Shown here: in pieces, positions 5,379 through 51,958 of the stretch
Numbering within the stretch: position 1 is the first letter of the stretch
How the letters are laid out: every line of letters starts with the position of its first letter
Made by a program: the position numbers and the translations under genes
Assembly: GCA_028688575.1 (NCBI GenBank)
Contig: JAQTXW010000011.1
Span: 1-52,574, forward strand
Source: Methylotenera sp.
GTDB taxonomy: Bacteria > Pseudomonadota > Gammaproteobacteria > Burkholderiales > Methylophilaceae
DNA length: 52,574 bases
Direction of reading: 5' to 3'
The notes under the pieces: generated by a model
Told to the model about the DNA's origin: nothing
Database searches by the model: none
The model's input: only the letters and a program-made list of their open reading frames with translations

Positions 5379-5693
5379 ATGTTTACCGTAATCGAGACAA
5401 GTGTATTTATTAAATATGCAAAACAAATATGGGCTGATGATGAACGCATTGAGTTTATCAATTGGATTGCAATTAATCCATTGGCAGGCGATGTCATACC
5501 AAACAGCGGTGGTTGCCGCAAGGTGCGTTGGTCACGTCAAGGAATGGGTAAACGTGGCGGTGTGAGAGTGATTTATTTTAATCAACTTGAACTGGGTAAG
5601 ATTGGTTTATTGATTGTGTATGCAAAATCTAAATTTGATAACTTACCCGCTGAATTTTTTGCACAAATTAAAGAGGAGTTTAATCATGACTAA
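5379..5693 (+). CDS. RelE/HigB-type toxin
   Basis: This 104-residue protein looks like the RelE/ParE fold of the HigB2 type. It has a conserved segment CRKVRWSRQGMGKRGGVRVIY followed by LLIVYAKSKFDNL and a C-terminal helix (DNLPAEFFAQIKEEF). Family members bind the ribosomal A site and cleave mRNA. The clustered Arg/Lys residues in the middle segment would be the RNA-contact face. The stop overlaps the antitoxin start by 8 bases. The toxin-before-antitoxin order is typical of higBA-like pairs. Which branch of the family it belongs to is not certain. The gene is visibly AT-rich compared with the fhc genes to its right. Confidence 0.85.
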   Translation: MFTVIETSVFIKYAKQIWADDERIEFINWIAINPLAGDVIPNSGGCRKVRWSRQGMGKRGGVRVIYFNQLELGKIGLLIVYAKSKFDNLPAEFFAQIKEEFNHD

Positions 5694-5976
5694 AGATATT
5701 GAATTGGAGCAATTCAAAGCGGATTTATTAGCTTCTGCGCGTGAGTTAAAATCTGGTAAGGTTACACGCGCAACGCTAGTTGAAATACCTGCTGTTGTGA
5801 GCGTTCGTCACAACACAGGGCTTTCCCAAAGTCAATTTGCTAGTTTATTGGGCGTGTCTGTACGCACGCTTCAGGGTTGGGAGCAAGGAAGAATTGCGCC
5901 TTCAGGTGCTGCCAGAACATTAATTACTGTAGCGACAAAACACCCTGAAGTTTTGCGAGAGTTGCTTGCTGCTTAG
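5686..5976 (+). CDS. HigA-type antitoxin, HTH/XRE protein
   Basis: This 96-residue protein starts at ATG 5686, inside the last codons of the toxin gene, with AAGAGGAG as a strong ribosome site eight bases upstream. A longer in-frame start at 5614 lies deep in the toxin gene and lacks such a site. Residues 35-90 form an XRE helix-turn-helix (TGLSQSQFASLLGVSVRTLQ, then GWEQGR). The N-terminal 30 residues are probably the toxin-binding part. It would neutralise the neighbouring toxin and repress the shared promoter at the 5351-5371 repeat. Confidence 0.87.
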   Translation: MTKDIELEQFKADLLASARELKSGKVTRATLVEIPAVVSVRHNTGLSQSQFASLLGVSVRTLQGWEQGRIAPSGAARTLITVATKHPEVLRELLAA

Positions 5977-6541
5977 CAAATTAACCTATTGTTACAGACT
6001 CTATCCAGTGCCCACCTCCATCATCTTTGGCGCACCAAATTAAACAATAAATTAGCTCTTCTTAAAGCTTCTTTATTCTTCATAATTCTCCTACATTTTT
6101 CTACTGCGCTGTGGGATAGGTGTGAGATGAATCTTTGGTTCAAATATACCAATCTACATTAGTCCTCGTTGTTCTTCTATTGACTGATAGTTCTGTTCTG
6201 GAATTATTCAATTTTACGCTTGCGTGTGCTTTAGTGACAATGCATAAGCCACCTGCTGTTTTTCTGAAACCAGTGAGGGTTAGTCCTAGCTTGGGTAATT
6301 TTGATCTGAGTAAAGGACGGGGGTGCAGCATAACTATTATTTAAGCTGCTAGTTGGGCGCAAGAGTCATGCAAGAACGTAGTGCACTACAGAAGGTTAAG
6401 TCGCAACCTTTAGTTAAAAAGTAAAATGCTACGAGCCATTTTAACTTGTATGTAACGATTATGCGATAATAAACCCTTTTTATTACCGCAAATTTAGCGG
6501 TGATGGTTGACTATGCGGTAATAACATGCAATTATCACCGC
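5977..6541. other. Region between the antitoxin and fic
   Basis: A 565-base stretch without a supported gene. Two opposed open frames cover 6135-6344 but have no recognisable domain or ribosome site. The right end, from 6481, holds repeated GCGGTAAT-type sites listed separately. Confidence 0.4.
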
Positions 6542-6560
6542 ATGAGTAGCGGTAATTATC
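6481..6560 (+). promoter_or_regulatory. Cluster of five GCGGTRAT sites around the fic start
   Basis: Five copies of a GCGGTAAT-like motif lie within 80 bases in alternating orientation: TATTACCGC (6481, reverse), GCGGTGAT (6496, forward), GCGGTAATA (6515, forward), ATTATCACCGC (6531, reverse) and GCGGTAATTA (6549, forward). Copies at 6481-6490 and 6514-6523 make a perfect 10-base inverted repeat. They surround the chosen fic ATG, and a related ATGCGATAAT lies at 6461. This looks like a multi-site operator; the binding protein is unknown. Confidence 0.5.
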
Positions 6561-7663
6561 AAAAATATATCTGGCAACAAGCTGAATGGCCGCAATGGTC
6601 GTTTAATCCAGCGGCATTTTCACAACTATTATCGCAGGTTAATCTTGAGCGCGGTCGCTTGCTTGGTTCTATGCAAGCGTTGGGCTTTAAACTGGCTGAA
6701 GAGGCTAGCCTTAAAGTATTAACCAGCGAAGTAGTTAAATCGAGTGAGATAGAAGGTGAGCGACTTAATCCTGAAGCGGTACGGTCATCCATAGCTAGAA
6801 GGTTAGGCATAGAGGCTGGTGGTCTTGTGCCGTCGGATAAGCATATCGATGGTGTTGTGGAAATGGTGTTAGATGCTACACGCAATTGCAGTGCAGCATT
6901 AACACAAGAGCGTTTATTTGGCTGGCACGCAGCACTTTTCCCTACAGGTCATAGTGGCATGTTCAAACTCACCGTTGCAGCCTACAGAGATGATGCAGCA
7001 GGAGCAATGCAAGTAGTTTCAGGTGGGATAGACCATGAGAAAGTGCATTATGAAGCACCTTCAGCCGCAGTAATTCAAACTGAGATGACACATTTTTTAG
7101 ATTGGTTTAATAATGAACTGGGATTAGACCCCGTCATCAAGGCTGGGTTAGCACACTTGTGGTTTGTTACTTTGCACCCGTTTGATGACGGTAACGGGCG
7201 TATAGGTCGCGCTATATGTGATATGGCTTTGGCTCGTGCGGATGGTTCCGCACAAAGGTTTTATAGTTTATCCGCACAAATGCAGCGTGAGCGTGATGAC
7301 TACTACAATAGCTTAGAGCAAGCGCAAAAAGGCACTTTAGATGTGACTGCCTGGCTAACTTGGTTCTTAGGTTGTTTGTTACGTGCAGTGCAAAGTGCGA
7401 ATGAAGAACTGAAAGGCGTAGTGTATTTAGCTAACTTAAGTCATCACCTGCCAAGTGGTAAGTTAAATGAACGCCAAATGAAAATGCTAAACATGATGAT
7501 GCACGGGTTTAATGGCAATCTCACAACAGGTAAGTGGGCAAAGATTGCACAGTGTTCTACCGATAGTGCTTTGCGTGATATTAGTGAGCTAGTTGAGTTA
7601 GGTGTTTTACTAAAAGCTGGCGAGTCAAAACGTGCCACTCATTATGTTTTAAGTGAGTTTTAA
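6542..7663 (+). CDS. Fic-family AMP-transferase with N-terminal DUF4172-like domain
   Basis: With the ATG at 6542 the protein has 373 residues. A GTG/ATG 42 bases upstream would put 14 unrelated residues before the usual start of this family (YIWQQxxWPxW). Residues 8-85 resemble DUF4172, and a Fic core covers about 110-260. The catalytic loop is complete: HPFDDGNGRIGR at 212-223, with H212 as the base. S67-x-x-x-E71-G72 matches the inhibitory motif of class II Fic proteins, in which the Glu blocks ATP binding. A C-terminal winged-helix-like region follows (about 315-373). Such enzymes transfer AMP from ATP to target proteins; the target here is unknown. It may act as a self-contained toxin with built-in inhibition. 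It lies in the tRNA-Leu island. Confidence 0.88.
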   Translation: MSSGNYQKYIWQQAEWPQWSFNPAAFSQLLSQVNLERGRLLGSMQALGFKLAEEASLKVLTSEVVKSSEIEGERLNPEAVRSSIARRLGIEAGGLVPSDKHIDGVVEMVLDATRNCSAALTQERLFGWHAALFPTGHSGMFKLTVAAYRDDAAGAMQVVSGGIDHEKVHYEAPSAAVIQTEMTHFLDWFNNELGLDPVIKAGLAHLWFVTLHPFDDGNGRIGRAICDMALARADGSAQRFYSLSAQMQRERDDYYNSLEQAQKGTLDVTAWLTWFLGCLLRAVQSANEELKGVVYLANLSHHLPSGKLNERQMKMLNMMMHGFNGNLTTGKWAKIAQCSTDSALRDISELVELGVLLKAGESKRATHYVLSEF

Positions 7664-8090: not shown

Positions 8091-8906
8091 TTAATGGCGG
8101 CAATCAAGGATCAGAACTTCACCATTTCCTTTGTAGGCTGCGTCACCTACATAGCGTTGTACACGCAGGTTTTTTAAGTCCGCAAACAACGCATGGTATT
8201 TTGCCAGCGATTTAAACAGTAAGTTTAGGAAGGGCAGGGTGTGCGTGCCGCAATCTTGAATGGTGCTGTGCAGTTGCGGTGTTTTCTTTAATAGCAATGT
8301 GCCGCGATGCATGTTGAACGCGGCATATCTGCCCAGGCCGCCCAGTACCACGATTGTCCCTGCAATCATGCGACTAGCGCAGTAGTCACCTGCGTTGCCT
8401 TCAATCATAATGAGGCCTCTGCGCATTTGGTCGCCTGCGCGGTCACCTGCATTGCCTTTAACAATCACCGTGCCGCCACGCATGCCCTTGCGTAGTCCGT
8501 CTGAGCCTGCACCTAAAAAGTCACCCGTATTGCCGCTGATATGCAAAAATCCGTTGGTCATGTTGCATGCGGCAAACGCTTCGGTATTGCCATGGCAGAG
8601 AATTTTACCGCTCTTGAGATTGAAGCCCAAGTATGCGCCGGCATCCCCCTCTACTGTAATCGTGCCAGTGCTCATATAGGCGCCGATGTAGTCGAGTTTG
8701 TTGCTTGAGTTTTTAAACACAATCTGTTGAGGGTCGCTACCGCTGATTTCAAATAGCTCACCCGCAGTGGTGGCTGTGTTACCTAAGCCCAGCGTAAGGT
8801 TTGCAATGTCTTTGATAGATATATTGGCGAGATTATCTGGTGTTAATACGCTGCAGTTGACTGCATAGCGCGGTGTTTGTTTTAGGCTGAAAGTCAGTGC
8901 GGTCAT
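8091..8906 (-). CDS. fhcC: Formyltransferase/hydrolase complex subunit C
   Basis: This 271-residue protein is homologous to formylmethanofuran dehydrogenase subunit C and to the C-terminal beta-helix domain of glutamate synthase. Residues 75-220 show the repeated turns of a right-handed beta-helix with Gly-rich corners (GNAGDRAGDQMRRG, GNAGDYCASRM). In the bacterial Fhc complex it holds FhcA and FhcD together and takes part in converting formyl-methylofuran, formed from formyl-H4MPT, to formate. It is the last gene of the fhc operon. Its ATG overlaps the fhcD stop by four bases, which suggests translational coupling. Confidence 0.93.
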   Translation of the reverse strand: MTALTFSLKQTPRYAVNCSVLTPDNLANISIKDIANLTLGLGNTATTAGELFEISGSDPQQIVFKNSSNKLDYIGAYMSTGTITVEGDAGAYLGFNLKSGKILCHGNTEAFAACNMTNGFLHISGNTGDFLGAGSDGLRKGMRGGTVIVKGNAGDRAGDQMRRGLIMIEGNAGDYCASRMIAGTIVVLGGLGRYAAFNMHRGTLLLKKTPQLHSTIQDCGTHTLPFLNLLFKSLAKYHALFADLKNLRVQRYVGDAAYKGNGEVLILDCRH

Positions 8907-9811
8907 GATTGGTTACCGTTTAAAATATCATGTAATTTGAAAAGATGCGGCCCTAGTTTGCCACCGTAGTTACCTGCCGAAATGCGTTTTACCCCGCTAG
9001 CTTCACCTAGCTGGCAAATGGCCTCAATACCAACTTTCATTGAGCGGGCGATATCTTCAAAGCTTAAACCATCTATCACGATTTCCATCACGCTCTCAAT
9101 TGCAGGGGATAGCGCTGTGTTGGTTGCACCTTTCAGCGTTGGGCAAAAAGCGTCGTTGGTGGAGGCGAACATGGTTTTATATTTGCTACCCACTTTAGAG
9201 CCTGAGCGTACTACCCCTCCTGGAAAAGGCATGATGACATTAGGGACTTGTTTCATGGCTTCAATGGCAGTTTCTGCGGCAGCAAGCGCCTGTGGCTGTG
9301 AAGTCGCCAGAATCAAAAAATTACCACCACCGATTGCGCGAACCATGCCCGTGGTTTCTTCTGTGAGAAATTCGCCATCCATGACGGGGATGCGCCAGTA
9401 GCGTTTGCCATCGATAAGTTTTGAGGTCTGAAAACCATCCCCAAAATAACGCAAATGTTTGCCCAGGCTGATTTTGTCTTCACTCTCAATACCTGCAAAT
9501 GCGGCAGCAGTGGGGCAGGTGAGTATACATTGTCCCATGCGTGTTTCAAGCTGCTGCATGAGCACTTTGCTACCCATGGCAAACATCAGAATGCTAACGC
9601 CAGGCCTGCCGTCAGGCGTTTCATCAGCGCTAAGGTCGCGCTCAATGCCTGCTTCAACGCCACAGCCGATTACTGAGGTGGCAAAGCCTGTCATGGCATT
9701 GGCGGCATGGTAAGCCCATTTGTGGTTTTGTGCCGTAATAATGACTCTTGTGCCGCGCATGTTGAATGCTTCTGCAAAGGTGTCGTCGATTTGTATGTTA
9801 TTTAGCAGCAT
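8903..9811 (-). CDS. fhcD: Formylmethanofuran-H4MPT formyltransferase subunit
   Basis: This 302-residue protein starts at ATG 9811 (MLLNNIQIDDTFAEAF). A longer open frame to 9997 adds 62 residues that lie inside the upstream gene and do not belong to the family. It is homologous to archaeal Ftr and moves the formyl group between tetrahydromethanopterin and methylofuran. Conserved segments include FNMRGTRVIITA, PTAAAFAGIES and GSKVGSKYKTMFASTNDAFC. Its length matches the usual 300 or so residues. It follows the PNPOx-like gene by 22 bases and overlaps fhcC by four. It acts in the cytoplasm within the FhcABCD complex. Confidence 0.94.
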   Translation of the reverse strand: MLLNNIQIDDTFAEAFNMRGTRVIITAQNHKWAYHAANAMTGFATSVIGCGVEAGIERDLSADETPDGRPGVSILMFAMGSKVLMQQLETRMGQCILTCPTAAAFAGIESEDKISLGKHLRYFGDGFQTSKLIDGKRYWRIPVMDGEFLTEETTGMVRAIGGGNFLILATSQPQALAAAETAIEAMKQVPNVIMPFPGGVVRSGSKVGSKYKTMFASTNDAFCPTLKGATNTALSPAIESVMEIVIDGLSFEDIARSMKVGIEAICQLGEASGVKRISAGNYGGKLGPHLFKLHDILNGNQS

Positions 9812-9833
9812 AAGTTTTAACTTGTGTGGTCGG

Positions 9834-10493
9834 TTAAGCGGTGGGGTCGCCAGATTTAATTTTGCCAACCCATTCTTCAATTTGAATAGTGCCTTGTTGT
9901 TGCACTTTTTTAAGGTCAGATGCACTAATGACATCCTGAACCAGATCCAGCCGCTTCCATTCGGCAAGCGGTGTTTCGCAGTCTGCACGCGGCACATAGC
10001 GTGAGTCTCGGACTTTTTCCAGTTTGGGAATGTAACGTGGACAATTCACCCAGTATTCAGACAGTTTGACTGTGACGACAAAGTCAGCTTCTTTGTAGTG
10101 TGCCAGCAGGGCAGGGTCTTTTGAAATGCTTGCCGTGCCTTGTACGCGTCTGCGGTCAGGTGCAGTAAATGAGATAAACAGCAAGCCCACATTGGCGTTC
10201 TGGCTGATGTTGCCCATAGAAAAGAACATGCCATTGCCGTCGTAACTCGGGAATATCAGGGTGCTGCTGTCTATCACCTTAACAAAGCCCGCTTCTCCGC
10301 CTTTGTATGAAACGGTCGGTCGACCCTGATGGTCAATCGTGGACAGGAAAAACATCTCAGCGCTTTCAATAAACGCCTTTACGTCGTCGTCAAATTCGGT
10401 GCGGCAGACCAGCGCCTCTACACGGTCCGCCATGTTACGTGTGCCAAATTCATCCTGTAGTTTTCGATGCGGTTCACCGTATAACCTGCTCAT
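9834..10493 (-). CDS. PNPOx-family flavin-binding protein inside the fhc operon
   Basis: This 219-residue protein belongs to the pyridoxamine 5'-phosphate oxidase-like split-barrel family (COG3576 type). Typical segments are MFFLSTIDHQGRPTVSYKGG (about 47-66), SYDGNGMFFSMGNISQN (about 84-100), RRRVQGTASI (about 115) and VNCPRYIPKL (about 148). These proteins bind FMN or a related flavin and are mostly of unknown substrate. It begins 6 bases after fhcA and ends 22 bases before fhcD, so it should be on the same transcript. A role with the C1 carrier pathway is suggested only by position. It is not a known subunit of the FhcABCD complex. Confidence 0.88.
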   Translation of the reverse strand: MSRLYGEPHRKLQDEFGTRNMADRVEALVCRTEFDDDVKAFIESAEMFFLSTIDHQGRPTVSYKGGEAGFVKVIDSSTLIFPSYDGNGMFFSMGNISQNANVGLLFISFTAPDRRRVQGTASISKDPALLAHYKEADFVVTVKLSEYWVNCPRYIPKLEKVRDSRYVPRADCETPLAEWKRLDLVQDVISASDLKKVQQQGTIQIEEWVGKIKSGDPTA

Positions 10494-10499
10494 GCTGTT

Positions 10500-12188
10500 T
10501 TACCCCTTGTGTACATTAGTAATAACATGATTTCTGCCATCATCACCTATTTCAGCATCACTGATTTTGAAGTTATCTAGCTGCATGGTCTGGTATCTGT
10601 TGAAGTAATCTTTCAAGTCTTTCTCAACGCCAATATCAAAGGCTGGTTTTGCAGTGTGTGTTGCACCCCATACCACTTTGACGACTTGGCCATTTTTGAC
10701 AACCAACTCCCCGTTTTTAAATACATAATCAGGTTTGCTGAACATTGCCTCACGGTCTGTTTGATCGGTGTAAACGGTGATATCTGCTTGTGCCCCCAGC
10801 CCCAGGTGTCCGCAATCATTCAGCCCAATCAGTTTGCCTGCACCTGCACGCGTCATGATGGCAATTTCATAGAGGCTGTATTCGCGTTCGATACTGGTGA
10901 GATTGCTCATGGCTTGTGCATCTAAATTAAGTCTGGCGAAGTGCTCATTTCTAAAAGTTTTATCCATGAGCAGCCGAATTAAATGCGGGTAGCTAGTGAA
11001 CGGGGCGCCGTTAGGATGATCTGTTGTCAGGAAAATACGCCATGGATCTTCAACAGACAGGAAAATCTCCAGGCCAATCGCCCACTGCAAGGCATTGACG
11101 TAATTTTGGTCGCGATATTTAAATGGCAACACTCCGCAGCCTGCATCACACTCAATGTCCATAATGACGGATTTTTTAGGATTCGCGTGCTTGGCGTTTA
11201 GGTGCTGCATCATGGAGTCACCTGAAGCGGTGACGGTTTGCCCAAATAAAATCTGCCCGACATCTGTGGTGATGTGCTTGTTTTTATTAAGCGCTTCGGC
11301 AATTTGTGCCGCGGCTGAGGAGAATTTTTTATCACCTTCAGTCCCATAGCTATGAAACTGGATGTGGGTAAGGTGCATAGGCAGGCCTTCACTCGCACTC
11401 ATGGTGTTGAGTGTGGTTTCAAAGTTACCTGCAGCACCTAAATTATTACAGTGCACATGCAGTGGTTTGGCAATACCAAGCTCATGCACAGCGCGGCTTA
11501 AACTTTTTAACACAGCACGTGGACTTACTTGATAATGGCTGTGATTTTCATCCAGGTCCAATCGGCGCTGATTAAATTTAAACGCACTGATTCCTCCTGG
11601 GTTCACTACCTTAATGCCAATGGCTTGCGTGGCGTGCAGTATCCATGCCACATAATCATTGATGGCTTTCTGGTCTCTATTGGCGGTAAGCATGCGCAAA
11701 AAATAGTCATCGCTCCCTAGCATTGCATAGCCGCCTTTGTCTATCATCGGCGTGTCACCCATTTCCAAATGGGCCTGGCGAGCGTTGACCGGCATGATTG
11801 CAGGCTCAAACGCCGCTGTGTAGCCCATCTCTATGTATCTGAAGCCTGTGTCAGTTGCGCTGGGCACGGCATGGTGACTGCAGTGCGGCGTACAGATGTG
11901 CGCTTCTGGCTCGGTGAGGTTTTTAATTGCCTGCGCCTGCTGATATTGCTGTTGATATTCAGGTAGCATCATGCGCGCAATGTTCATTTTGCCACCGCCA
12001 ATATGACTGTGCATGTCAATTGCGCCTGCCATTACCACCTTGCCAGTCAGGTCATATATCTGGCTGATTTTTGCGTCGTCAACAGGTTTGGGTATGATGC
12101 GCCCCTGATAGAGGTAAATGTCTTCTATTACGCCATTTTTTTGGTGTGCTGGGTCGTAAATTCTGCCGTTTTTCAGTAAGGTAATCAT
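10500..12188 (-). CDS. fhcA: Formyltransferase/hydrolase complex subunit A (formyl hydrolase)
   Basis: This 562-residue member of the amidohydrolase superfamily is homologous to formylmethanofuran dehydrogenase subunit A. The metal motif HSH is in AIDMHSHIGGGKMN (about 58-71), followed by HCSHHA (about 104). Later conserved stretches are LHVHCNNLG, HLTHIQFHSYG and LTTDHPNGAPF, which carry the expected His and Asp ligands. In Fhc it hydrolyses formyl-methylofuran to formate. Its start overlaps the fhcB stop by four bases. The length is normal for the family. Confidence 0.95.
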   Translation of the reverse strand: MITLLKNGRIYDPAHQKNGVIEDIYLYQGRIIPKPVDDAKISQIYDLTGKVVMAGAIDMHSHIGGGKMNIARMMLPEYQQQYQQAQAIKNLTEPEAHICTPHCSHHAVPSATDTGFRYIEMGYTAAFEPAIMPVNARQAHLEMGDTPMIDKGGYAMLGSDDYFLRMLTANRDQKAINDYVAWILHATQAIGIKVVNPGGISAFKFNQRRLDLDENHSHYQVSPRAVLKSLSRAVHELGIAKPLHVHCNNLGAAGNFETTLNTMSASEGLPMHLTHIQFHSYGTEGDKKFSSAAAQIAEALNKNKHITTDVGQILFGQTVTASGDSMMQHLNAKHANPKKSVIMDIECDAGCGVLPFKYRDQNYVNALQWAIGLEIFLSVEDPWRIFLTTDHPNGAPFTSYPHLIRLLMDKTFRNEHFARLNLDAQAMSNLTSIEREYSLYEIAIMTRAGAGKLIGLNDCGHLGLGAQADITVYTDQTDREAMFSKPDYVFKNGELVVKNGQVVKVVWGATHTAKPAFDIGVEKDLKDYFNRYQTMQLDNFKISDAEIGDDGRNHVITNVHKG

Positions 12189-13483
12189 GCTGTTTTAACT
12201 TTCGCTGCTTGCGTGTTTGACAGTGCTGTCTCCAGCTGCTTAATCACTTCACCCAAGCTGGGGAGTTGTGTCTCTTGTAGCGCTTTTAGTGGTAAGGTGA
12301 TTGAACTATCCATCCTGAACATCAATCCAGTGTGATCAACACCAGGAATGCCTACAGGAATAAATACATCTGGCGTACGTTCAAACTTTGTATCAGGGTG
12401 GCCGATGACAATGGTTGGGCAATGGGAAATCGGAGGCTCGTGAGGGTTGAATGTGCTTATCCACAATAATGCATCTGCAATATTGTGTTGTTTTTTTGTT
12501 GAGAAATGAAAGCTGTCGTAATCTGCCCGGCCGTTTTTAAAGCGACTTCTGGTAGGGTAGCCACTCAACCATGCGCTGGCATTATTCACCGAATAGTCAC
12601 CATCCCCCGAGTTAAGTGGCAGGCCAGCTGCTCGTGTGGTTTCGTTGAGTTGGTTAATCAGTTGCACGATACTTTGGATAGTAAGCTCCGCGTGTGAAAA
12701 CTTAAAACTACTGGCAGACCACACGATGACGGCATATTTTGCATTTTTTAATTTTTCAACGACTGACACTAATTCGCTTAATGCTACGCTGCCCGCGGTT
12801 TGGGCATGAATTTTTTTCTTGCATAACAGTGCGCTGAGCGTATTAACGATTTCAGGTAAATGGTTTGGATCTGCCGTAATTGTTGTAGGTGCTTTACCAT
12901 CAGGTGCTGTGCCAGCCTTTGTTTTTTCAGCAGGTGCTCCGATGTAAATCACTTCTGGCGTGGGCTTGTCAAACAAACTCTCGGTGTTCCAGACTAATTT
13001 CTCAAAAAATCGAGGGTGACTGCTAGTGATGTCAGTGCCAATCGCCAAAATGACATCGGCACGGTTTTTGACTTCAGCCAGCGTGGTGGTGAGCCAGCCG
13101 CCATTTTGCAAAGCGAGTGTGTTGCGAATACTGGATTCACTATGTAAATGGTCTAGTGTGGCGTTGGTTTTTTTAGCTAAACGTATTACCGCACGCATGC
13201 CTTGCACCTCAGTGCCAAGCCCTGCAAATAAAGCAGATTTACTTTGCTGCAGAATTTCGGTGGCTTTTTTTACTGCGCTGGCGAGATCCGAAGGTTTGCC
13301 ATCGATGCTAGGCGATACGTTGATATTGGCACTAAAAGATCGCTCAAAAAACTCTATGCCTTTGGGACAGGCATTTTTAACTGCCAAAGGCGAAGTTTGA
13401 TTTAATATTAAATCATCACAAAGCAGACCGCACGCTGGGCAGGTGGCTGATGTCTGATCATTGGTTTCTTGCTGAGTTTTCAT
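12185..13483 (-). CDS. fhcB: Formyltransferase/hydrolase complex subunit B
   Basis: This 432-residue protein is the bacterial form of formylmethanofuran dehydrogenase subunit B and the first gene of the operon. The N-terminus keeps CPACGLLCDDL (about 20-30), like the archaeal enzyme. The region where archaeal FwdB has a metal-binding Cys/Sec reads SESSIRNTLALQNGGW and has no cysteine. That fits the known loss of the redox site in the bacterial complex, where B is thought to be structural. The promoter must lie in the 141-base gap shared with the divergent ndk gene. Confidence 0.92.
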   Translation of the reverse strand: MKTQQETNDQTSATCPACGLLCDDLILNQTSPLAVKNACPKGIEFFERSFSANINVSPSIDGKPSDLASAVKKATEILQQSKSALFAGLGTEVQGMRAVIRLAKKTNATLDHLHSESSIRNTLALQNGGWLTTTLAEVKNRADVILAIGTDITSSHPRFFEKLVWNTESLFDKPTPEVIYIGAPAEKTKAGTAPDGKAPTTITADPNHLPEIVNTLSALLCKKKIHAQTAGSVALSELVSVVEKLKNAKYAVIVWSASSFKFSHAELTIQSIVQLINQLNETTRAAGLPLNSGDGDYSVNNASAWLSGYPTRSRFKNGRADYDSFHFSTKKQHNIADALLWISTFNPHEPPISHCPTIVIGHPDTKFERTPDVFIPVGIPGVDHTGLMFRMDSSITLPLKALQETQLPSLGEVIKQLETALSNTQAAKVKTA

Positions 13484-49361: not shown

Positions 49362-49910
49362 ATGCAAGAAAATCAACGTTTAGCATGGGCAATTACAGGC
49401 TCAGGACATTATTTGCGTGAGTCGCTGGCGATATTGAATACGCTGGACAATGTAGATGTCTTTTTGAGCAGAGCAGCGGCCGAGATTATTCAGCAGTATG
49501 GCTTTCAGCCATTGCTCAGCGCCAATAACCATCGCGTCTATCAGGACAAAACCGCCAGTAGCGTGCCTGTTGAATTGTTTTACCAGGGAAAATACCACAC
49601 TCTAGTCATTGCGCCTGCAACCTCTAATACAATTGCCAAAATGGCTTACGGATTTTCAGATAGCCTGGTGACCAACCTCTATGCACAAGCAGGAAAAACG
49701 CGCGTGCCTAGTATTGTCTTTGCCTGTGACACTGCGCCAGAGTTAGAGTCAGAGGCGCCGCGCGATCACATCGTTAAGGTTTACCCCCGCAGAATTGATT
49801 TGGATAACATTGCCAAGCTAAAAACTTTTGAAGCAACTTGTGTTGTAGATACGATGCAAAGTTTGCGTGATAGCATACAACAGCACTGCCAGCAGGCATT
49901 GCTGTCTTAA
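49362..49910 (+). CDS. dmrB: Flavoprotein dihydromethanopterin reductase-like (DmrB/AfpA family)
   Basis: This 182-residue flavoprotein begins ITGSGHYLRESLAIL (about 10-24), followed by VDVFLSRAAAEIIQQYG. PATSNTIAKMAYGFSDSLVTN and IVFACDTAPE are typical of the archaeoflavoprotein group. Paraburkholderia DmrB of this family reduces dihydromethanopterin with FMN. It would complete H4MPT synthesis in this organism. The symbol is by family resemblance, since AfpA homologues with other roles are known. Confidence 0.72.
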   Translation: MQENQRLAWAITGSGHYLRESLAILNTLDNVDVFLSRAAAEIIQQYGFQPLLSANNHRVYQDKTASSVPVELFYQGKYHTLVIAPATSNTIAKMAYGFSDSLVTNLYAQAGKTRVPSIVFACDTAPELESEAPRDHIVKVYPRRIDLDNIAKLKTFEATCVVDTMQSLRDSIQQHCQQALLS

Positions 49911-49913
49911 AAC

Positions 49914-51386
49914 ATGGCGAACAATCTACTTTTCTTAACGGGAAAGCTAGCCGAAAAGAGCCTGCATAAAGTGTTAAATGAGGTGCAGAGTAACCCTAAA
50001 ACTCCACCATTTAAATACCGTGTCGAGCAAATTGGCGTTTCAGTTGCAGCATTGATGACGCCAGATCTCATTGCGCGTAGGTTAAAAGAAGCGGGCAGTG
50101 CCGATAAGATCATCGTGCCTGGCCTGTGTCAGGGCGATTTAAGCGTGCTGGAAAAGCAGTATGGCGTTCCTGTAGAGCGGGGCCCAGCAGACCTGAAAGA
50201 TTTGCCCCAGTATTTTGGGCATGCTGGTGTGGCGCCTGATTTAAGTCAGTATCAAGTGAAGATTTTTGCCGAAATAGTCGATGCCCCTGATTTAACGATT
50301 GCGCAGATTGTGCAAAAAGCCGAATGGTTTCAAGCGCAAGGCGCCAATGTCATTGATTTAGGCTGTTTGCCAGCCGTACCTTTCCCCCATCTGGCCGAAG
50401 CGATTCAAGCGCTTAAAGGCGCTGGTTTTGATGTCAGTGTTGATTCATTAAATCCTGACGATTTACTCACAGCTGGGCGTGCAGGTGCTGATTACCTGTT
50501 AAGCCTGACAGAAAAGACAATATGGATAGCAGAAGAGGTGGCTGCTACCCCTGTTTTAATTCCAGCACAGCCACATAGTTTACCTTCGTTATATCGTGCT
50601 ATTGACGCTTGCCTCAAGCGCAACAAGCCCTTTATTGCAGATGCTATTTTAGATCCGATTCATTTTGGCTTAGTTAACTCTATTGTGCGCTATCAGAAAC
50701 TACGCAAAAAATATCCGAAAATTCAGGTGATGATGGGTGTTGGCAACTTGACGGAGCTGACAGATGCTGACACCACAGGGATTAATGCATTGCTGTTTGG
50801 CATGATCAGCGAGTTGAATATTAATGCAGTATTGGCGACTTCAGTCAGCCCGCATGCGGTCAATGCGATTGCAGAAGCAGACATTGCAAGGCGTACCATG
50901 TATGCCGCCAAGCGGGATGATCGCCTGCCGAGAGGCTATAGTGCAGGTTTACTATCATTACATGACAGGCGACCTTTTACCTATACAGCAGATGAAATTA
51001 GCGAAATTGCCAGTCAGATTAAAGACCCGAGTTTTCGCATTCAGGTGAGTGAGCAGGGTATTCACATTTATAATCGCGATGGTATCCATCAGGCGACGGA
51101 TCCATTCACGCTTTACCCTAAACTGAAAGTCGAGGATGATGCCTCACATGCCTTTTATTTAGGTGTAGAATTGGCGCGCGCGCAGATTGCATGGCAGCTT
51201 AAAAAGCGTTATGTACAAGATCAAATACTTGAGTGGGGCGTGAACAGTCAATATCATGCGCCAGAAGCTAAAACGGCGCATCGTGAAGCATCCATTAAGG
51301 AAAAACGCGAGAAACAGCAAGCACGAGTTAAAGATGCACCTGTGCTTAAGCCCATGGCTAAAGCGGATGAAAGTCAAAAATCATGA
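49914..51386 (+). CDS. Dihydropteroate synthase-related protein
   Basis: This 490-residue protein resembles the dihydropteroate-synthase-like family of methanogens and H4MPT-using methylotrophs (TIGR00284, related to MJ0107). A TIM-barrel-like domain is visible with GANVIDLGCLPAVPFPHLAE and DVSVDSLNPDDL (about 142-187). The N-terminal 120 residues and the Lys-rich C-terminus are specific to the group. The exact step is not established. It lies three bases after the flavoprotein gene and overlaps the next gene by four. Confidence 0.8.
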   Translation: MANNLLFLTGKLAEKSLHKVLNEVQSNPKTPPFKYRVEQIGVSVAALMTPDLIARRLKEAGSADKIIVPGLCQGDLSVLEKQYGVPVERGPADLKDLPQYFGHAGVAPDLSQYQVKIFAEIVDAPDLTIAQIVQKAEWFQAQGANVIDLGCLPAVPFPHLAEAIQALKGAGFDVSVDSLNPDDLLTAGRAGADYLLSLTEKTIWIAEEVAATPVLIPAQPHSLPSLYRAIDACLKRNKPFIADAILDPIHFGLVNSIVRYQKLRKKYPKIQVMMGVGNLTELTDADTTGINALLFGMISELNINAVLATSVSPHAVNAIAEADIARRTMYAAKRDDRLPRGYSAGLLSLHDRRPFTYTADEISEIASQIKDPSFRIQVSEQGIHIYNRDGIHQATDPFTLYPKLKVEDDASHAFYLGVELARAQIAWQLKKRYVQDQILEWGVNSQYHAPEAKTAHREASIKEKREKQQARVKDAPVLKPMAKADESQKS

Positions 51387-51958
51387 TTTATGAAACTATC
51401 GTGAGCACTGTAGATGGAGAGGGCAATGCGCATGTGACACCCTTTGGCATACAGCTAAGTGATGGACTAGTGATTATTTCACCCTACAAACCGTCGAGAA
51501 CCTTAGATAATATACTGGCCACAGGCTATGCTGTGGTGAATGTTGTTGATGATGTGCGCCTATTTGCAGCTGCGCTGACGGGGCGTCCTGCGGGTGATTT
51601 ATTACCTGCTGAGAGGATGTCGGGTTTTAGGTTGGCTGATGGGTTGTCACACAAAGAGCTGAAACTGGTGAAGGTGCAGGACGATGCTATCCGTCCGCGA
51701 CTATCTTTAGCGCTTGTGCATGAGGTTCAGCACCGCGCATTCCAGGGGTTTAATCGTGCACAAGCTGCCGTGATTGAATTGGCGGTGCTGGTAAGTCGAT
51801 TAAAAAGGCTACCCCTGGATAAAATTACAAACGAATTGGATTACTTGAAGATTGCGATTGATAAAACCGCAGGACCACGTGAGCTGGAAGCGTGGCAATG
51901 GCTGGCAGAGGCAGTTGAAAACCACAAAGCCGCCTTAAATTTGGAAAATCTTGCTTAA
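51383..51958 (+). CDS. DUF447 family protein, H4MPT-associated
   Basis: This 191-residue protein is of the DUF447 (COG2457) family. Its N-terminus, YETIVSTVDGEGNAHVTPFG, resembles flavin-reductase-like split barrels, with a helical C-terminal part. These genes occur with H4MPT synthesis clusters in archaea and methylotrophs. The biochemical role is unknown. The ATG overlaps the upstream stop by four bases. Confidence 0.82.
   Translation: MIYETIVSTVDGEGNAHVTPFGIQLSDGLVIISPYKPSRTLDNILATGYAVVNVVDDVRLFAAALTGRPAGDLLPAERMSGFRLADGLSHKELKLVKVQDDAIRPRLSLALVHEVQHRAFQGFNRAQAAVIELAVLVSRLKRLPLDKITNELDYLKIAIDKTAGPRELEAWQWLAEAVENHKAALNLENLA

Follow-up and report, generated by a model that had tools for sequence, protein, structure and literature searches.

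In Methylotenera, the four-gene fhc operon serves the conversion of formaldehyde to formate. What, then, is an additional gene, specifying a PNPOx-like flavoprotein, doing between fhcA and fhcD in the stretch of 52,574 nucleotides that is analysed here (the window), and might its product be a part of the Fhc enzyme, a helper or a passenger? The window comes from a genome (G000) of 2.25 Mb that is 98% complete and belongs to a GTDB group dominated by Methylotenera. Its fhc locus reads, in the direction of transcription:

12185..13483, minus strand: fhcB (best match TIGR03129, 292.9 bits, just under the cut-off of 327.8)
10500..12188, minus strand: fhcA (TIGR03121 equivalog, 718.7 bits)
10494..10499, minus strand: 6-nt spacer between fhcA and the PNPOx gene, with a Shine-Dalgarno-like AAGGGG sequence within the final fhcA codons
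9834..10493, minus strand: PNPOx-like split-barrel flavoprotein gene (219 aa; intact ORF with an ATG start)
9812..9833, minus strand: 22-nt spacer between the PNPOx gene and fhcD, without a clear Shine-Dalgarno sequence and too short for a promoter
8903..9811, minus strand: fhcD (TIGR03119 equivalog, 460.7 bits)
8091..8906, minus strand: fhcC (TIGR03122 equivalog, 259.8 bits)

Coordinates and profile models give the order fhcB-fhcA-PNPOx-fhcD-fhcC: all four fhc genes are there in their usual arrangement, the insert aside, and it is the additional gene between fhcA and fhcD that sets the window apart from other FhcABCD operons. The preliminary description had placed a 219-residue PNPOx-like gene on the same strand between fhcA and fhcD, with gaps of 6 and 22 nt respectively, and had remarked on the tight coupling of the other fhc genes by 4-base overlaps; coordinates and the PF01243 profile confirm the former, and 4-nt overlaps at fhcB/fhcA and fhcD/fhcC bear out the latter. 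A promoter scan of the fhc operon yielded matches more rarely than in shuffled sequence.

The only Pfam domain matched by the inserted gene's product is PF01243 (PNPOx_N; 57.4 bits, above the cut-off of 28.1). Searching the PDB with the single sequence gave no match, and a profile search gave weak matches only, the best being to the COG3576 protein 2htd (E=0.0015). The structure model (mean pLDDT 93.6) is more informative: residues 31-154 form a split barrel, for which the best fold matches in the PDB are HupZ, 2htd and the Desulfovibrio FMN-binding protein (Z 14-15.6 over ~113 residues; for 2htd, Foldseek E 4e-9). The ligands of these nearest solved structures are FMN, F420 or haem. HupZ is the closest (Z 15.6, rmsd 1.9, 111 residues), but the haem-binding HupZ/HutZ proteins share only ~20% identity with the window protein and differ from it in length. 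The best named model is TIGR04025, for the MSMEG_1061 family of COG3576 FMN-dependent PPOX-type flavoproteins, which is matched by 52 of 52 aligned homologues. The window protein nevertheless stays below its cut-off (89.1 bits as against 170) and departs from the family in its invariant NCPRY motif and in additional segments at both termini; 39 columns are invariant among the 52 homologues, including KGG, GNGM, GN, RxR and NCPRY. As modelled, the protein is probably a stand-alone, FMN-binding split-barrel flavoprotein, COG3576/MSMEG_1061-like. The window genome has a second PF01243 protein (on C18) of HugZ-like length, its domains being read by eye. It also encodes a 526-aa protein (G000:C33, L173:1369-2949) in which a PNPOx-like domain bearing an NCP motif appears, again by eye, to be joined to ferredoxin-reductase and 2Fe-2S parts; by analogy, this fusion suggests that a related domain can receive electrons.

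The preliminary description allowed for the inserted gene's product being a cofactor handler. One candidate role would be that of a substitute PNP oxidase, filling the missing PdxH step of PLP synthesis in Methylophilaceae. PdxJ is present and PdxH (TIGR00558) absent in all 18 Methylophilaceae tested; the window genome has no TIGR00558 match, and its pdxJ gene lies at G000:C4:21265-21969. The PF01243 N-terminal domain and its fold are indeed common to PdxH and the window protein, but the latter lacks the C-terminal PF10590, and PF01243 alone is a poor predictor of PNP oxidase function (PMC4556617). There are no PF01243 proteins at all in G102 and G156 (both single contigs) or in G177, which makes an unrelated PNP oxidase likely in the family; G177, moreover, does have PdxJ. 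In a sample of 300 Burkholderiales genomes, the PNPOx subfamily and PdxH are not anti-correlated (20/35 vs 123/265, p=0.28). G177 and this lack of anti-correlation lead us to reject the substitution, which we regard as highly improbable, and with it the notion of a PLP oxidase. A missing-PdxH hole is known in nearly 1000 genomes (PMC9997740), and PdxH is missing from about half of the 300-genome sample.

How widely is the fhcA-fhcD position occupied? A PNPOx search set against fhcD coordinates across the family (187 genomes, 134 with fhcD) finds the linked gene in 52 of the 134, one of these being a pseudogene (in G175). In the window's own genus, 40 of 51 fhcD genomes have it immediately upstream of fhcD, in addition to the broken copy in G175; it is linked in 6/14 fhcD genomes of GTDB genus g43 and in 5/22 of genus g39, in none of the 47 fhcD genomes of the remaining genera, and in none of the 27 fhcD genomes that the 300-genome sample of the order includes from other families. 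Although some absences from metagenome-assembled genomes may be assembly gaps, of 80 loci whose junction was measured, 37 were read directly as lacking the gene and 43 have it. In loci of the family without the gene, fhcA and fhcD are at most 43 nt apart and mostly overlap by 4 or 1 nt; joined genes of this kind, often at -4 nt, are found in G030, G177, G017, G023, G195 and others. Non-carrier lineages that are nested among carriers retain all four fhc genes. The gene is therefore not present wherever fhcABCD is retained, and most fhc operons, in the family as in the order, do without it: conservation holds for the window's genus but not family-wide, and absence from most related fhc operons, which the preliminary description had named as telling against its proposal, is what is seen at the family level but not at the genus level.

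All linked copies form one clade in the protein tree (support 99/97), which includes one unlinked, fast-evolving duplicate (G001b) and whose sister group consists of unlinked copies from Methylophilus and Methylobacillus. That the linked copies are a single clade implies one insertion event at the fhcA/fhcD junction. Mapped onto the FhcD tree, linkage requires 13 changes of state, far fewer than with shuffled labels, and at least 5 of the changes are forced by well-supported branches, so the gene has been lost or exchanged many times. One exchange can be followed more closely. The PNPOx proteins of G130, G131 and G139 (L085, L202, L205) nest with those of Methylotenera G011 and G178, whereas their FhcD and FhcA proteins group with those of the Methylophilus-like G127 (the FhcA tree being a quick FastTree); an insert of Methylotenera origin between Methylophilus-like fhcA and fhcD must have moved without its flanking genes, most simply by homologous recombination within the conserved fhcA and fhcD ends. 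Decay is also on view: at L177 (in G175) an internal deletion/frameshift disrupts the PNPOx gene between an intact fhcA and an intact fhcD. Among 17 carriers, the median dN/dS (Nei-Gojobori) is 0.060 for the PNPOx gene, 0.029 for fhcA and 0.040 for fhcD, values that are rough because synonymous sites are saturated in many pairs. The gene is under purifying selection, with a somewhat weaker constraint than fhcA and fhcD. Such a dN/dS, together with the gene's presence at this junction in 51 genomes from three GTDB genera, argues that the position is not due to chance; it is real and clade-conserved, yet derived and dispensable. The case shows that one gene at a junction within a core operon can be acquired, lost or swapped between lineages, its neighbours remaining in place.

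Outside the carrier group, no fhc gene lies within 5 kb of any of 62 homologous loci, which come from Methylophaga, Hyphomicrobium, Binatia, OM43, Bradyrhizobium, Endozoicomonas and others. Homologues also occur in fhc-less genomes, and the OM43-like G143 has the gene without fhcD. Taken with the absence of linkage in the 47 and 27 fhcD genomes already referred to, these loci dispose of a universal fhc-linked subunit; an extra Fhc partner, as the preliminary description had it, is not supported as a general feature.

The neighbourhoods of the unlinked homologues bear on a different possibility, which is that the protein serves some ordinary housekeeping or stress function outside C1 metabolism and that its gene, a neutral passenger, merely uses the fhc promoter. 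Inspected by eye, these surroundings are unrelated to one another: three genera have the gene between spoT-like and ridA-like genes, in OM43 its neighbour is a TonB-receptor-like gene, and elsewhere it is in other company; no neighbourhood common to all was found. This, like the patchy gain and loss of the linked gene, is what one would expect of a passenger. Against it stand the long retention of the junction position, a list of closest relatives that is rich in methylotrophs, and the company that the subfamily keeps: defined by full-length matches at E<1e-40, it is present in 16 of 32 fhcD genomes but only 19 of 268 others in the 300-genome sample (OR 13.1, p=6e-9) and remains associated with fhcD outside the family (OR 9.4, p=6e-6), neither figure being corrected for phylogeny. 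We think it unlikely that the gene is a mere passenger.

Could the protein instead be a lineage-specific fifth component, one that binds Fhc or handles methylofuran or H4MPT, for example by reducing an oxidised or damaged pterin, and so makes for a modified Fhc in Methylotenera? The exact placement in 51 genomes, the single origin, purifying selection and enrichment of the subfamily among fhcD-bearing genomes are all consistent with that, as is the presence of another split-barrel flavoprotein in the H4MPT island of the same window. On the other hand, the gene is repeatedly absent where the four fhc genes are intact, unlinked in all other fhc genomes and present in genomes that lack fhc. The chemistry of Fhc, formyl transfer and hydrolysis on methylofuran (PMC8141765), is non-redox, and no electron carrier is needed for it. 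A candidate dihydromethanopterin reductase of the AfpA/DmrB type is, besides, found in all fhc-bearing genomes tested, carriers and non-carriers alike, which also eliminates the PNPOx protein as a missing enzyme of that kind; its sole match is to PF01243, with none to the TIGR02699 or PF02441 flavoprotein models. A fifth component accordingly strikes us as quite improbable. The same must be said of its more mobile variant, in which the protein would be a redox partner peculiar to Methylotenera within the H4MPT/methylofuran pathway, for instance by repairing oxidised cofactor at or close to Fhc, and in which its gene would spread by recombination into the fhcA/fhcD junction as a single-gene cassette.

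The island itself, at 49362-51958 of the window, comprises an AfpA/DmrB-like gene, a DUF6513/DUF4346 pterin-binding gene and a DUF447 gene, with a 4-nt overlap between the last two.

49362-49910: AfpA/DmrB-like flavoprotein gene (below the TIGR02699 cut-off)
51383-51958: DUF447 split-barrel protein gene of the H4MPT island

The DUF447 protein resembles the PNPOx protein in having a split-barrel type domain and a tie to H4MPT genes in the same genome, but it belongs to a separate family (PF04289/PF20766) with weak similarity to PF01243 (E=0.0045). A 2014 comparison of Methylophilaceae lists H4MPT genes, the PNPOx gene not being among them, and our literature search found, among the papers covered, none that mentions the gene together with fhc.

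We favour, with a probability of about 0.6, an accessory redox flavoprotein whose gene entered the fhc operon once, has repeatedly been lost or exchanged and does not specify an Fhc subunit. A gene of a subfamily that resides at unrelated loci in other Methylophilaceae entered the fhcA/fhcD junction a single time, in the Methylotenera lineage, and has since been subject to purifying selection and to repeated loss or exchange, once as the insert without its flanks. Its product would be translated from the fhc mRNA, at a level tracking C1 flux, and may be a small cytosolic flavin reductase or oxidase, of use when the cell grows methylotrophically, possibly by recycling redox compounds or protecting them; it would be neither a structural nor a catalytic subunit of FhcABCD. 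Single entry, frequent loss and the location of its relatives elsewhere make a co-expressed helper likelier than a missing enzyme part. What weighs against an accessory protein is that 51 genomes across three genera have kept the gene at one and the same junction, more than pure hitchhiking would lead one to expect. A role related to methylotrophy is plausible, given that gene order is conserved within the genus, that the genes are closely spaced and co-directional, that selection is purifying and that the subfamily tends to occur together with fhcD. To that extent the functional link originally proposed from position survives, but a partnership with Fhc in general is not supported, in view of the absences and the unlinked homologues. 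Close relatives with and without one additional gene in a core one-carbon operon offer a natural comparison, which makes the role of this uncharacterised, methylotroph-enriched flavoprotein subfamily directly testable.

Near the end of the fhc operon, the window also holds, as judged by eye, a RelE/HigB-like and XRE-like toxin-antitoxin pair (5379-5976) and a gene for a Fic-domain protein (6500-7663).
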